From positions 62,001-126,000 of the forward strand of contig JACPUC010000003.1 of the NCBI GenBank assembly GCA_016192455.1: a stretch of DNA of 64,000 bases. Direction: 5' to 3'. Of the stretch, positions 48,359 through 54,917 are shown in pieces (the first letter of the stretch is position 1; each line of letters opens with the position of its first letter). Source of the stretch: Candidatus Tectimicrobiota bacterium (lineage in GTDB: Bacteria; JACPUC01). A model generated the notes under the pieces. The model worked only from the letters and a program-made list of their open reading frames with translations, was not told the origin of the DNA and did not search any database. The translations under genes were made by a program, and so were the position numbers.

Positions 48359-49426
48359 TCAGAATTGCAGCAGGGCGCCCTCGGCGCAGAGTCCGGGGCC
48401 CAGGGCCGCCATCACCCCCAGCTCGCCGGGACGGGGGGGATCGCTGCCCAGGACGCGCTCCAGAACGAAGAGCACCGTGGGGGACGACATGTTCCCGTAG
48501 TGGTAGAGGATGTGCTGCGACGCCGCGAGCTGGTCGTCCCGCAGGCCGAGGTGATGCTTGATGCTCTCGATCACCCGCACGCCGCCGGGGTGCAGCACCC
48601 AGCGCGCCACCCTGCTTGCCTCCACGCCCCGCGCATCGAGGAGGCGCTTCACCAGGTCCTGCACCACCGGGCCGCTGATGGTGCGCAGCTCCTTCGACAG
48701 GCGAATGCGATGCCGCCCATCGATGGTGTCGAAGCCCACGTGGCCGAGGTACTCCGGGTACAGCGCCGAGGCGAAGCCGAGGACGGTGGCGCCGCGGCTC
48801 TCGGGCGCGGCGGCGGGGCGCGCCCGAGAGCCGCTCGGCGCCAGCAGGGCCGCGGCGGCGCCGTCGGCGCAGAGGGCGTTGCCGATGACCGTCTCCAGGG
48901 AGGCGTCCTTGTAATAGGCCGCGGAACAGACCTCCACGGCCACCGCCAGGGCGGGCCCGCCGTTAGCCCGCGCGAAGTCGCCGGCGCGTTGCAGGGCCGG
49001 CAGGGCGCCGGCGCAGCCGTGGCCGACGATATCGGTATGTTGCAAGTGGTGCGGGAACTCGAGGGCGCCCATGAGGCGCGCCGAGAGTCCCGGGCAGACA
49101 TAGCCGGTGCTCGTCGCGACGGCGAGGAACTCGACCTGCCGCGGCTCGATGCCGGCGCGCCCCAGGCAGCGCTCAATCGCCTCTTTGGCGAGGCTGACGC
49201 TCCCCTCCGTGAACCGCCGGAGGAGGAAGTTGGGGTCTTCGTACGAGGGCGCCGTCTCGGCGTTGACCCTGTACAGGTGGCGGTAGCCGATCTCCGTGTT
49301 CAGGAAGAACTTGCGGATGGCGGCGCTGCGGTAGCCGATGAGCTCGTAGACCTCCTGCTGGCTGAATCGTTCCGCCGGCACGGCAACGCCGAGGTGGGTG
49401 ATGCGCGCCTGAACGTCACCACGCAT
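48359..49426 (-). CDS. type III polyketide synthase (chalcone/stilbene synthase family)
   Basis: A 355-residue thiolase-fold enzyme. The catalytic triad of type III PKSs is present: the nucleophilic Cys in VGHGCAGALPAL, His in WVLHPGGVRVIE and Asn in HYGNMSSPTVLF. It condenses an acyl-CoA starter with malonyl-CoA units; bacterial members near a methyltransferase often make alkylresorcinols or alkylpyrones that enter membranes. Its start overlaps the upstream methyltransferase gene by 11 bp, so the two are translationally coupled. The chain length and starter cannot be predicted from sequence alone. Confidence 0.92.
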   Translation of the reverse strand: MRGDVQARITHLGVAVPAERFSQQEVYELIGYRSAAIRKFFLNTEIGYRHLYRVNAETAPSYEDPNFLLRRFTEGSVSLAKEAIERCLGRAGIEPRQVEFLAVATSTGYVCPGLSARLMGALEFPHHLQHTDIVGHGCAGALPALQRAGDFARANGGPALAVAVEVCSAAYYKDASLETVIGNALCADGAAAALLAPSGSRARPAAAPESRGATVLGFASALYPEYLGHVGFDTIDGRHRIRLSKELRTISGPVVQDLVKRLLDARGVEASRVARWVLHPGGVRVIESIKHHLGLRDDQLAASQHILYHYGNMSSPTVLFVLERVLGSDPPRPGELGVMAALGPGLCAEGALLQF

Positions 49427-50267
49427 GCTGCTCTCCAGCCTGGGATGAGGAGGCCGTCCCCACGGGTTCGGCGGCGAATCCCATCGGCGGGGGCGGGCGC
49501 CGCAGGGTCAGGACCGCCCGATACGGAAAGTGCCGGTGCAGGACGTAGCCCTCGGCCGCCAGCGCCGCGGCGAGGCGGCGCCACTCCGCGGGCGAGAAGC
49601 TGTTGCGCACCGAAGCCGGGCCGTCGGCGCGCGTCAGCCGATTGCGCGTCGTCGCGCGCACGATCGCCTGCACGCCGCGGTACGGCAGCCAGTGGCGCAC
49701 GAGGTCCTCGACAATGACGGCGCGCCGCGCCAGGCGCGCCAGGCTGCGCAGCAGCGCCCTTCCCTCCCCGTCCTCGAAATGGTGCAGCGCCTGGGAGCAG
49801 AGCACCACATCGACGCTGCCGTCGCGCAGCGGCAGGGCGCGCGCATCCGCCCGCAGGAGCCGCACGCCGGCGGCGGGCAGCCCTGAGCTGGTCGGCCGCG
49901 CGGCTCCATGCAGGAGCTCCCTGGCGGCGCGCAGCACCAACGCATTGGCATCCAGGCCGATGCAGGTGAGACGCAGGCCGCGCCGGGCGCCCCACTTCGC
50001 CAGGTGCTGCGGGATGTCCGCCGATCCCGTGGCGAGGTCGAGGATCGTCCAGCGCCGCCGCGGCTCGGCCAGGAGCAAGGGCGCCAGGTGGCGCATGAGG
50101 AACCGGCGGCCCCCCAGCCAGCGGTTGTAGCGGCGGATGTCCAGGAGGTTCTCGTAGAGCTCGGGATAGGAGGAGAGGGGCTGGTCGATGAGCTCAGGCA
50201 GCCGGGCGCGCCCCGCCTCCCCCCCTCCCTCTCTCGCCCCCAGCCGCGCAAGCAGACGGTGAAACAT
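49416..50267 (-). CDS. SAM-dependent methyltransferase partnered with type III PKS
   Basis: A 283-residue class I methyltransferase. Motif I is TILDLATGSADIPQHLA, followed by CIGLDANALVL and GSVDVVLCSQALHHFEDGEG. It is Arg-rich and soluble. It overlaps the type III PKS gene by 11 bp (first gene of the pair), so it probably methylates the polyketide product. A ubiE-like quinone methyltransferase is less likely because of this coupling. The N-terminal 45 residues (RARLPELIDQPLSSYPELYE) are typical of methyltransferases next to bacterial type III PKSs. Confidence 0.86.
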   Translation of the reverse strand: MFHRLLARLGAREGGGEAGRARLPELIDQPLSSYPELYENLLDIRRYNRWLGGRRFLMRHLAPLLLAEPRRRWTILDLATGSADIPQHLAKWGARRGLRLTCIGLDANALVLRAARELLHGAARPTSSGLPAAGVRLLRADARALPLRDGSVDVVLCSQALHHFEDGEGRALLRSLARLARRAVIVEDLVRHWLPYRGVQAIVRATTRNRLTRADGPASVRNSFSPAEWRRLAAALAAEGYVLHRHFPYRAVLTLRRPPPPMGFAAEPVGTASSSQAGEQHAW

Positions 50268-52267: not shown

Positions 52268-52693
52268 TCAGGGGGGCGAGCCGCCGAGCAGGTGGCAGAG
52301 CTCGACGTCGGGGTGCGCGGCATCGTAAGGCTGGTCGTAGTACGACAGGAGGTAGATGACGTGCTCATCGATGTTGCGCACGGCGTGGCCAAGGCCGGCG
52401 GGAATCTCCACCACGGTGAGCTCCGCGGCCGAGAGCTCGAACTCCTCCCCGCCGTCGGCACCTTCGACGCGCCAGGCGGAACGCCCGCCCCACACGAAGA
52501 TCAGCTCATTCAGGCGCCGGTGCCGGTGGTTGCCGCGCACCGCGCCCGGCGCGATGGAGGCCAGGTGGAGGTGGCCGAACGGCCCGGCCGCGTACTGCGG
52601 CGGGATGGGGTTGACGACCCAGCCGCGCGCATCGACGAAGTGGCCGGCGCCGAGGCTGTGGCGTGTCACCCTGCGCCAGGCGGCCTTCGCCAT
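52268..52693 (-). CDS. single-domain cupin protein
   Basis: A 141-residue cupin. Motif 1 has the metal-binding His cluster in GNHRHRRLNELIFVWGG and motif 2 lies in VVEIPAGLGHAVRNIDEHV, whose GLGHAV supplies a further His. It resembles the WxcM/FdtA-like sugar isomerase cupins and polysaccharide-associated cupins, but without the linked sugar genes the assignment stays general. It lies 120 bp downstream of grdA on the same strand. Confidence 0.72.
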   Translation of the reverse strand: MAKAAWRRVTRHSLGAGHFVDARGWVVNPIPPQYAAGPFGHLHLASIAPGAVRGNHRHRRLNELIFVWGGRSAWRVEGADGGEEFELSAAELTVVEIPAGLGHAVRNIDEHVIYLLSYYDQPYDAAHPDVELCHLLGGSPP

Positions 52694-52813
52694 CTCCCCT
52701 CCGTTTCGGCGCTCAGGCCGAACCCACCCGAGACACAGGGCGCGGCCCCCGGCGGCTCCCGCGTCCCGCTGTCCTCGCCCTTTTCACCCCCGCGCACGGG
52801 CGCCCCGCGAGCG

Positions 52814-53272
52814 CTACCCGGCGCCGCCGCGGAACCCTCCCAGGGTGGTGCTCAGCTCCGCGCTGTCATAGAGCATCGCGTACATGCCGAGCTTCTCCTC
52901 GTAGAGGGCGCTCGGCACCTCATCCTTCAGAGCGGCTTCAAGGATGTGGAAGACAGGGAGTCCCAACGAGACCCCCGCCAAGGGCCCGGCGTAGGCGGGG
53001 TCGCCACTTGTCACCGTCTCCGCGGCGATCTTGATGGCTTCCAGTTCGCCCGCCCCCAGGACCACCACCAGGTCCGCAGCGCCGTGTTCATCGACGAGCT
53101 GCTTGATGGTGCCCTGGTTCTCCAGGTCCATGGCGCCGGCCGCCGTTCAGACGAAGCACTCGGTGGTCTGGTACACGACCTCGGCGCCGGCCGCCGCGGC
53201 AAGCTCGGCAATCACCGGCCCGGGAACGCCGTCGCGCTCGCCGATGGCGATAACCTTCTTCCCTTTCAGCAT
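52814..53272 (-). CDS. grdA: glycine/sarcosine/betaine reductase selenoprotein A (TGA = Sec42)
   Basis: Read from ATG 53272 through the in-frame TGA at 53149-53147, the gene gives a 152-residue protein that matches GrdA along its length. It begins [19 protein letters not shown] and has the redox motif ECFV-U (Cys39-x-x-Sec42). [12 protein letters not shown] and [18 protein letters not shown] follow, also diagnostic. GrdA carries the carboxymethyl-selenoether intermediate from protein B to protein C in amino-acid Stickland-type reduction. GGAAGGAGAG precedes the ATG. Without the Sec reading, gene finders start at Met48 and lose the active site. grdC is 76 bp upstream; grdB and grdD are absent from the window. 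Confidence 0.9.
53113..53126 (-). promoter_or_regulatory. candidate SECIS hairpin of grdA
   Basis: On the minus strand CCTGG, loop AGAA and CCAGG form a 5-bp stem whose loop starts after 25 nt from the TGA and has G as its second base. Both fit known bacterial SECIS rules, but the stem is short and lies within a conserved coding stretch, so it is only a candidate. Confidence 0.5.
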
Positions 53273-53348
53273 CGTTCGCTCTCCTTCCTAGCTGGGGTAT
53301 CCGCGTGGCGCGCCGTGGCGCCCGCGCTTGCCTCCTTCCACCGCCTCC

Positions 53349-54812
53349 CTACGCGACCTCCTCCCGCGCCTCCAAAATAAACGACATGCCGTCGGCAAGC
53401 TGCGTCATGCGCCCGAGGAAGAGACTGCCCTTGGCGATGAACATGGCGCGTCGCAGCCGGCCCTCCCGCAGCGCCGGCAGGGCGTGCGCCACGTAGGGCA
53501 CGGCGGCGGGCACGTGCCCCTGGGTGGGCGCGAAGCCGACCATGCCGCGCCGCGCCACGAAGGCGTCGATGTCGCCGCGTTCGATCTCGCCGCGCATGGC
53601 CGCGATGGCCGCCAGCATGCGGTAGTTGGCGCGCGGCACGTTGCCGCTCCCCGCCGGCTCGGTGATCTCCGGGTTGTGCAGCTCGACGGCGTAGCGATCG
53701 ACGTCGCACAAGCCCAGCCCATGGCGCCGCAAGGGCTCGACCACGAGGGCCTCCAGCATCCCCTGCGGCGAGGCGCCGTAGCTGACGTTGTGCTTGCCGA
53801 CCGCATCGAGCCGGAGCCGCGGGCTGCGGCCATCATCAGGGCCCACCCAGAAGGCCATGGCGGCCAGGCAGTCCTCCAGGATGGGCATCTCCTTCTCGAG
53901 GTGCCCCATGCACTTCATGCCGAGCTTCGCCAGCGAGCCGCCCCCCACCACCACGACGTTCTCGAACACCCCGGCCTGCACGAGCGCCGCCGCGTGCACG
54001 AGGGCATACACCGGCCCGGCGCAAAAGGCCTTCACGTCCGAGCCCGAGGCGTTGACGCAGCCGACCTCCTCGGCGATGGCCTTGGCGAGGTTGCCGCCGC
54101 CGCGGTTATAGCGGTCGCCCACCGCCTCCTCGGAACAGCTCAACAGGTAGCTCACCGCGCCCGGCTCGACCTCCAGCCGCTGCAGGAGATGGCGCAGGGC
54201 GAGGGCGCCGGAGGCTTTCGTGGCGAGGTTTTCCAGCAGCACCTCGCACCAGAGGCTGGGGTCGATCTCGTGCGCGCGGCGGATGCAGCCGACGACCTCG
54301 CCGCCGTGCTCGAGCGGCATCGCCGCGCCGCGCTCGATCTGCGCCAGGATGGCGGCCAGGTCGCGGCCCTTCGGTTTCGTTCCCCCGGCGCCCTCGCCGG
54401 CGCCCGCCGCCGCCAACAGGGGGTGCTCACGAAGCTGCGGCTCGGCCTGGCGCAGGAACTCCTCGCGCAGCCACAAGAGATCGAACTGGTCGGCGCGCCT
54501 CAGGAGGCAGTAGAACTCCTCCTCCGGCATGATCTCGCCGAAGGCGCCGAAACGGCGCGCCTCGGGCACGGGCTTGGCGTACCAGGGGCGATCGGCCTCC
54601 TTCAGCGCCTCCGGGGCCGCGTTGCCAAGGAAGACCTGGTTGGGCAGGTAGGCCAGGGCGGCGGCGTAGTCCCGCAGCCGCGGCCGCAGGCGCGCCAGCA
54701 GCTCGCCGTTCGACTGCTGCACCTCGCGGAACGGCTTCGAGCCGTAGCGCACCAGGTTCGGCATGTGCGCCAGAACCAAGGCAGCCTCTCGAATGACGGG
54801 GAACGTTCTCAT
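53349..54812 (-). CDS. grdC: glycine reductase complex component C, subunit GrdC-like
   Basis: A 487-residue thiolase/KAS III-like protein, close to the length of clostridial GrdC (about 510). It has NAAPEALKEADRPWYAKPVP in the N-terminal region and the SGSDVKAFCAGPVYALVHAA block with a likely nucleophilic Cys. The C-terminal domain includes AVELHNPEITEPAGSGNVPR and TQGHVPAAVPYVAHA. In glycine reductase, GrdC with GrdD takes the acetyl group off GrdA and yields acetyl phosphate. It lies directly upstream of grdA on the same strand. No GrdD (PlsX-like) gene is seen. ATG 54812 is preferred to a TTG at 54851. Confidence 0.85.
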   Translation of the reverse strand: MRTFPVIREAALVLAHMPNLVRYGSKPFREVQQSNGELLARLRPRLRDYAAALAYLPNQVFLGNAAPEALKEADRPWYAKPVPEARRFGAFGEIMPEEEFYCLLRRADQFDLLWLREEFLRQAEPQLREHPLLAAAGAGEGAGGTKPKGRDLAAILAQIERGAAMPLEHGGEVVGCIRRAHEIDPSLWCEVLLENLATKASGALALRHLLQRLEVEPGAVSYLLSCSEEAVGDRYNRGGGNLAKAIAEEVGCVNASGSDVKAFCAGPVYALVHAAALVQAGVFENVVVVGGGSLAKLGMKCMGHLEKEMPILEDCLAAMAFWVGPDDGRSPRLRLDAVGKHNVSYGASPQGMLEALVVEPLRRHGLGLCDVDRYAVELHNPEITEPAGSGNVPRANYRMLAAIAAMRGEIERGDIDAFVARRGMVGFAPTQGHVPAAVPYVAHALPALREGRLRRAMFIAKGSLFLGRMTQLADGMSFILEAREEVA

Positions 54813-54917
54813 CTTCAGCTCATGGTCTGCTGCATCAGCGTTGCGCGGCAAGCCTCGGGTTGAGGGGCGCGGCCACCCTTCTCACTCCAGCACGCCGCGC
54901 CCCAAGGGAGAGCGAGC

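Follow-up and report, generated by a model that had tools for sequence, protein, structure and literature searches.

A grdC-grdA pair in a Tectimicrobiota genome as the probable core of a GrdD-less, selenocysteine-dependent reductase

The adjacent grdC and grdA genes in the window, the 64,000-nucleotide stretch of DNA analyzed here, appear to be the substrate-independent core of a selenocysteine-dependent reductase that functions without GrdD and in which GrdC would transfer its acyl group to CoA, a reading to which, taken as a whole, we assign a probability of about 0.6. Its components differ in strength: the identity of the two genes and their assignment to the GrdD-less type are, judging from sequence comparison, very likely correct, and the chances that acetyl-CoA is the product of the GrdD-less reductase are about even. 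The pair is not an orphan but the core of a GrdD-less reductase branch that is widespread and little noticed; GrdEBCA clusters as such have been published already.

Both genes lie on the same strand (Table 1), as the first-pass annotation had recognized, and both products pass their family cut-offs. GrdC comprises 487 amino acids when read from the ATG at 54812 and 500 in the longest frame, which starts with a TTG at 54851 and underlies the residue numbering used throughout; it matches NF040746 with 646 bits (cut-off 450) and is 60% identical to the GrdC of locus L051. The region assigned to the pair had been given as starting at 52268, which is where the cupin gene, and not grdA, ends. The frame obtained with translation table 11 (52814-53131) is only the second part of grdA, downstream of the UGA; read through this codon from the ATG at 53272, GrdA has 152 amino acids, with selenocysteine at residue 42 in the CxxU motif typical of the glycine/sarcosine/betaine reductase complex, and matches NF040748 with 198 bits (cut-off 130) and PF04723 with 199 bits. 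The hairpin that follows the UGA (-17.7 kcal/mol, z = -1.54, with 15 of 200 shuffles as good) is at most suggestive of a bacterial SECIS element. Hairpins are present after each UGA, including those in the three grdB genes described below, with weak z-scores (-1.00 for a shorter grdA stretch; -0.17, -0.25, and +1.27 for grdB).

Table 1. Coordinates of the features discussed in the text; those without a prefix are positions in the window
Feature	Coordinates	Strand	Basis or remark
grdC, protein C beta subunit, probable GrdD-less type	53349..54812	-	NF040746, PF19364 + PF08545
grdA, glycine reductase complex selenoprotein A	52814..53272	-	UGA=Sec translation, PF04723, NF040748
Selenocysteine codon (in-frame UGA), CFVUTAA motif	53147..53149	-	codon 42 of grdA
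Hairpin, candidate bacterial SECIS	53106..53131	-	just downstream of grdA UGA, RNA folding
DpgA/type III polyketide synthase-like gene	48359-50267	-	beside a methyltransferase
GrdB-like protein, 295 aa, with in-frame UGA	L009:10603-11487 (G000:C25)	-	LLCCFPLUPACHQS
Frame split by a single TGA	L008:15464-15980 (G000:C5)	+	...TGIGD*GSCSSSSV...; a few kb after a GrdE-GrdB pair
Tandem GrdC-like frames, Chloroflexi contig	L096:2510-4457		52% and 43% identity to window GrdC

In the window, tblastn recovered neither GrdB, GrdE, or GrdD nor TrxA or TrxB, so the description of the pair as devoid of these partners holds locally; at the scale of the genome, it fails, because three GrdE-GrdB pairs reside on other contigs. 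The genome to which the window belongs (G000; 4.46 Mb, 31 contigs, 88% complete) contains three full matches to PF07355, the GrdB family, on contigs C31, C30, and C5, and a partial one on C25. Each full match is preceded by a GrdE-like frame of 422-434 amino acids, and the GrdB frames stop at a UGA beyond which they continue as UGTSTRC, UGTGVRC, and UGTGVRC, as in related loci, so that protein B is represented by three pairs of GrdE-type and GrdB-type proteins with UGA at the selenocysteine position. The genome also encodes tRNA-Sec (contig C8, 75.5 bits against a gathering score of 47) and SelB (contig C23, 366 bits, cut-off 242). There is no sign of a complete grd operon elsewhere, of which the pair would be a fragment: a tblastn-type search of the genome recovered one GrdC only. 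The conjecture that the missing parts are located elsewhere is thus correct for grdB and grdE but not for grdD, for which neither NF040747 nor PF02504 gives a match in this 88% complete genome; of the two subunits of protein C, GrdC was found and GrdD was not, and of the genes described as missing, grdD alone remains. The PF02504 model matches in 8 of 14 control genomes; with zero PF02504 matches, PlsX likewise was not found in G000. Two further frames on the grdB contigs deserve mention: the short GrdB-like protein that accounts for the partial match on C25 is, from its in-frame UGA, a possible further selenoprotein, and the split frame on C5 resembles a UGSC-motif selenoprotein.

The absence of GrdD is a property of a large group of loci. 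We scanned genome contigs with an alignment of four GrdC sequences and took the best 80 of 509 confirmed matches, a sample that is biased toward the window GrdC. By tblastn, 37 of these loci are classical, GrdD coming after GrdC, and no GrdD is present in the other 43. In 33 of the 43, grdA directly follows grdC, which confirms that the adjacency seen in the window is conserved (in six it does not despite sufficient room, and four are at a contig edge), compared to none of the 37 classical loci. Among these best 80 of 509, the record names of the GrdD-less loci include Myxococcota, Thermodesulfobacteriota, Nitrospinota, Chloroflexota, Rokuibacteriota, Pseudomonadota, Bacillota (mainly Bacillaceae and relatives), Actinomycetota, and Bipolaricaulota. 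Whole-genome searches yielded GrdD (NF040747) over the cut-off in 0 of 42 GrdD-less genomes versus 6 of 6 classical controls; the weak matches (up to 38 bits), which occur in controls as well, are taken to be PlsX. Of the 43 loci, 40 contributed a genome, which together with G000 and G094 (locus L020) makes 42; L072 and L079, whose bins were already represented by L067 and L125, were omitted, as was L096. The latter contains tandem GrdC-like frames, the second of them cut by the contig end, with no GrdA seen.

The other neighbors of the pair have not traveled with it. The Acg-type protein on one flank (NF047509, 210 bits, cut-off 199) and the cupin-like protein on the other were correctly identified, but in the survey of the best 80 of 509 loci, these two, the small protein, DoxX, and a type III polyketide synthase like the one in the window were each found in none, DUF255 in one, and an ABC permease, as a weak match, in one (L114); none of them qualifies as a conserved partner. 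The proposal that DUF255 and DoxX supply electrons is accordingly unsupported; TrxA is present in 16 of the 43 GrdD-less loci among the best 80 of 509.

The distinction between the two types of loci extends to the proteins themselves. After the last shared motif, GrdC continues for 6-26 residues in 43 untruncated GrdD-less proteins versus a tail of 39-54 residues, helical in appearance, in 31 of 38 measured classical proteins (a count that does not include L124) and fusion to GrdD in the other seven; the tail tracks the presence of GrdD, indicating that GrdC itself differs with GrdD. The natural fusions, 837-871 amino acids long, come from classical loci L082, L084, L088, L093, L094, L102, and L118; in the predicted structure of the L093 protein (pTM 0.63), the relative placement of the two parts is unsure. 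In a GrdC tree built from columns other than those of the tail, a single branch with SH-aLRT support of 99 separates 45 GrdD-less from 38 GrdD-containing sequences, although in this unrooted tree, obtained by a quick method, loss and gain of GrdD are indistinguishable. The GrdA tree shows the same split (41 versus 30 rows, SH-aLRT 96), and on either tree, one change suffices to explain the distribution of GrdD. The selenocysteine UGA is retained in all 71 GrdA sequences from the best 80 of 509 loci, which were collected by extension of tblastn matches because regular expressions (54 matches for GrdA, 36 for GrdB) missed variants. Class-specific residues of GrdC, conserved in at least 80% of the sequences, include K39, V244, R247-Y248, K274, K313, H392, and A473, in place of T, C, M-N, R, N, Q, and G, respectively, in the classical class. 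Several of these are gains of positive charge, which suggests, as far as sequence can tell, an anionic partner of the GrdD-less GrdC. The earlier proposition that the pair serves a different acyl transfer in a non-clostridial organism therefore receives partial support in the form of a coherent GrdD-less branch, and the difference in the final step is what we infer.

The fold of GrdC provides the main mechanistic argument for CoA as the acceptor. The AlphaFold2 model of the window protein (mean pLDDT 90.8; a loose loop, 245-252, holds R247-Y248) adopts the KAS III/thiolase fold, with OleA, SpoVAD, a T1-like thiolase, and FabH aligned over 260-291 residues at Z of about 21-23 and rmsd of 3.3-5.4, and FabH in complex with acetyl-CoA, as well as MvaS with an acetylated cysteine and CoA, are among the closest solved structures in a Foldseek search. 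C277 aligns with the catalytic cysteine of FabH, so that GrdC combines the thiolase fold and the catalytic cysteine of FabH-like enzymes. Unlike this similarity of predicted fold and cysteine position, sequence identity to the KAS III/thiolase enzymes is low (9-19%), GrdC contains large N-terminal insertions, and the cut-offs of two FabH families are not reached (34 versus 249 bits and 26 versus 292); in these fold and profile comparisons, no condensation chemistry is evidenced. H392 and H446 might, as a conjecture, form a thiolase-like catalytic pair; hhalign left H392 unaligned, and the C-terminal GrdC profile matched SpoVAD alone, weakly. Enzymes of the KAS III/thiolase fold move acyl groups between their cysteine and CoA thioesters, and although a shared fold does not by itself establish function, it is for this reason that CoA is considered the most likely acceptor here.

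The reaction could then proceed as follows. Each GrdE-GrdB pair would bind a different substrate of the X-CH2-COO(-) type; the selenocysteine of GrdB would attack the carbon, expelling X, and the carboxymethyl group would move to the selenocysteine of GrdA, where it would be reduced at the CxxU pair with electrons from thioredoxin, forming an acyl (acetyl) thioester on C277 of GrdC. In the classical system, GrdD carries the thiol that forms acetyl phosphate; because this subunit is absent, GrdC would most likely pass the acyl group directly to CoA, in the manner of KAS III/thiolase-fold enzymes working with acyl-CoA. The leading candidate, therefore, is a GrdD-less form that resembles the classical complex up to the acyl-GrdC step and ends with acetyl-CoA.

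The substrates appear to differ from glycine. The GrdE alignment column that holds a cysteine in 25 of 27 classical sequences does so in only 9 of 36 GrdE from GrdD-less loci among the best 80 of 509; we presume this cysteine to be the pyruvoyl-forming one. In G000, this position is occupied by R, G, and G in the three GrdE, which thus lack the pyruvoyl cysteine of glycine reductase proper. The same holds for FarE and the betaine protein GrdI, according to the passages available from PMC10838667, and by this analogy, the GrdEB modules of G000 likely act on a non-glycine substrate. Sarcosine reductase is not indicated, the scores being 335-388 bits against a cut-off of 800 for NF040794 and 195-274 against 780 for NF040793, and the three GrdB score best or near-best with sarcosine, glycine, betaine, or general models, far below the specific cut-offs. 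The genomic surroundings vary: an isochorismatase-family hydrolase precedes the pair on C31, HyuA/HyuB (nearest to caprolactamase models, below cut-off) precede the one on C30, and an AMP-dependent acyl-CoA ligase follows the one on C5; a route from hydantoin via an N-carbamoyl intermediate to a sarcosine-type compound would be a guess. In the Bacillales loci L058, L061, L062, L070, and L125, a transporter cluster recurs that we read, from its sequence, as possibly of the BCCT type, which would fit betaine. The GrdB motif UGTCTRC also varies in GrdD-less loci (UGTS, UGTG, UGTCNRC, and, in two Dehalococcoidia, UGTSTRSG), such that the cysteines beside selenocysteine often are lost. These features could mean that the transferred group is not acetyl at all, the GrdEB modules of G000 using other alpha-substituted acids and GrdC releasing a different acyl product; the missing pyruvoyl cysteine, the UGTS or UGTG motifs, and the diverse neighbors are compatible with this scenario, but the unchanged motif and fold of GrdA and the preference of the three GrdB, even below the cut-off, for sarcosine, glycine, and betaine models make it unlikely.

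The complement of enzymes that handle acetyl phosphate bears on the fate of the acyl group. AckA exceeds the cut-off in 36 of 37 classical genomes (6/6 and 30/31) versus 14 of 42 GrdD-less ones (partial in G209 and G215), Pta in 6 of 6 versus 14 of 42 (borderline, near 24 bits, in G200 and G217), and PduL in 4 of 6 versus 5 of 42; all three are without a match over the cut-off in 21 of the 42, among them the 88% complete G000, versus none of the six classical genomes. Fisher tests that ignore kinship give p = 7e-10 for AckA and p = 0.03 for the joint absence, with the AckA contrast confounded by taxonomy, given that the classical set is mainly Clostridia, and with incomplete metagenome-assembled genomes in both sets. 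The rule is not strict, as GrdD-less Bacillaceae do carry AckA and Pta. The missing outlets would suit a GrdC that hydrolyzes its thioester to acetate, making the reductase an electron sink or a detoxification device without energy conservation, and indeed, no recurrent acetyl-phosphate or CoA gene adjoins the clusters; nevertheless, thiolase-fold enzymes normally shield the thioester, and the class-specific positive residues hint at an anionic partner, so we regard hydrolysis as improbable. That GrdC alone acetylates phosphate, or that another acyltransferase, such as Pta, has replaced GrdD, is quite unlikely: despite the occurrence of Pta noted above, in at least 21 of the 42 genomes, with no AckA, Pta, or PduL over the cut-off, acetyl phosphate would have no common outlet, and no replacement gene recurs beside grdC-grdA. 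An ordinary clostridial-type glycine reductase with scattered genes, its GrdD missed through the incompleteness of the genome, is highly improbable and largely refuted, for, even though the scores of GrdC and GrdA exceed the cut-offs of the ordinary families and grdE and grdB do sit elsewhere, GrdD is missing from 42 of 42 genomes, the GrdC tail, the class residues, and both trees set the GrdD-less type apart, and the GrdE of G000 lack the aligned pyruvoyl cysteine. Transfer from GrdC to CoA accordingly remains the reading that we favor.

The clostridial system consists of GrdA, GrdB/F/H, GrdE/G/I, GrdC, and GrdD. The system in G000 shares with it the CxxU motif of GrdA, a GrdC above the family cut-off, and GrdE-GrdB pairs with selenocysteine in GrdB, but differs in the lack of GrdD, acetate kinase, and the C-terminal tail of GrdC, and in the position of GrdA behind GrdC rather than between GrdE and GrdB. 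The closest published relatives are the GrdEBCA clusters with SelA, SelB, and TrxA in Lost City metagenome-assembled genomes, for which acetyl phosphate was assigned as the product (PMC9469722, available passages); judged by the name alone, with its order E-B-C-A and no GrdD, these evidently belong to the same branch, although the passages leave GrdD unremarked and, in contrast to these clusters, the core in the window stands apart from GrdEB. The fluoroacetate reductase FarEB of Cloacibacillus, as described in the passages available, is a GrdEB-type module without pyruvoyl cysteines operating on a shared GrdA/C core (PMC10838667), but the glycine reductase of its host is listed there as grdABCDEX and hence is classical, unlike that of G000, the GrdE of which match the FarE model more weakly (146-194 bits, cut-off 675). 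GrdA and GrdB have been known in Deltaproteobacteria since 2006 (PMC1794560), both protein C subunits have been reported in Desulfovibrio, a classical system outside Firmicutes (PMC7547702), glycine reductase subunits have been analyzed in Desulfobacterota (PMC12827605), and a recent review has glycine reductase yielding acetyl phosphate via GrdC (PMC13188914), each according to the portions of these articles that were available. In the literature within reach of our search, which left most subscription journals and preprints outside, we found no statement on the absence of GrdD from such clusters.

Genome papers routinely infer acetyl phosphate and substrate-level ATP formation from the presence of grdA and grdB. 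If the GrdD-less form works differently, this inference would fail for about half of the loci (43 of 80, in the query-biased best 80 of 509), among them those of many uncultured lineages and of Bacillaceae that look aerobic. It is conceivable, at somewhat worse than even odds, that there exists a second, phylogenetically deep form of glycine reductase, spread over at least nine named phyla, which dispenses with GrdD and in which GrdC makes acetyl-CoA itself. Should this be the case, the GrdD-less reductases would offer a small, testable system for acyl transfer from a selenoprotein to a ketosynthase-fold protein, as well as a possible direct step from glycine to acetyl-CoA of relevance to the reductive glycine pathway, and cleavage of C-N (or other C-X) bonds would feed central metabolism directly, without acetyl phosphate.
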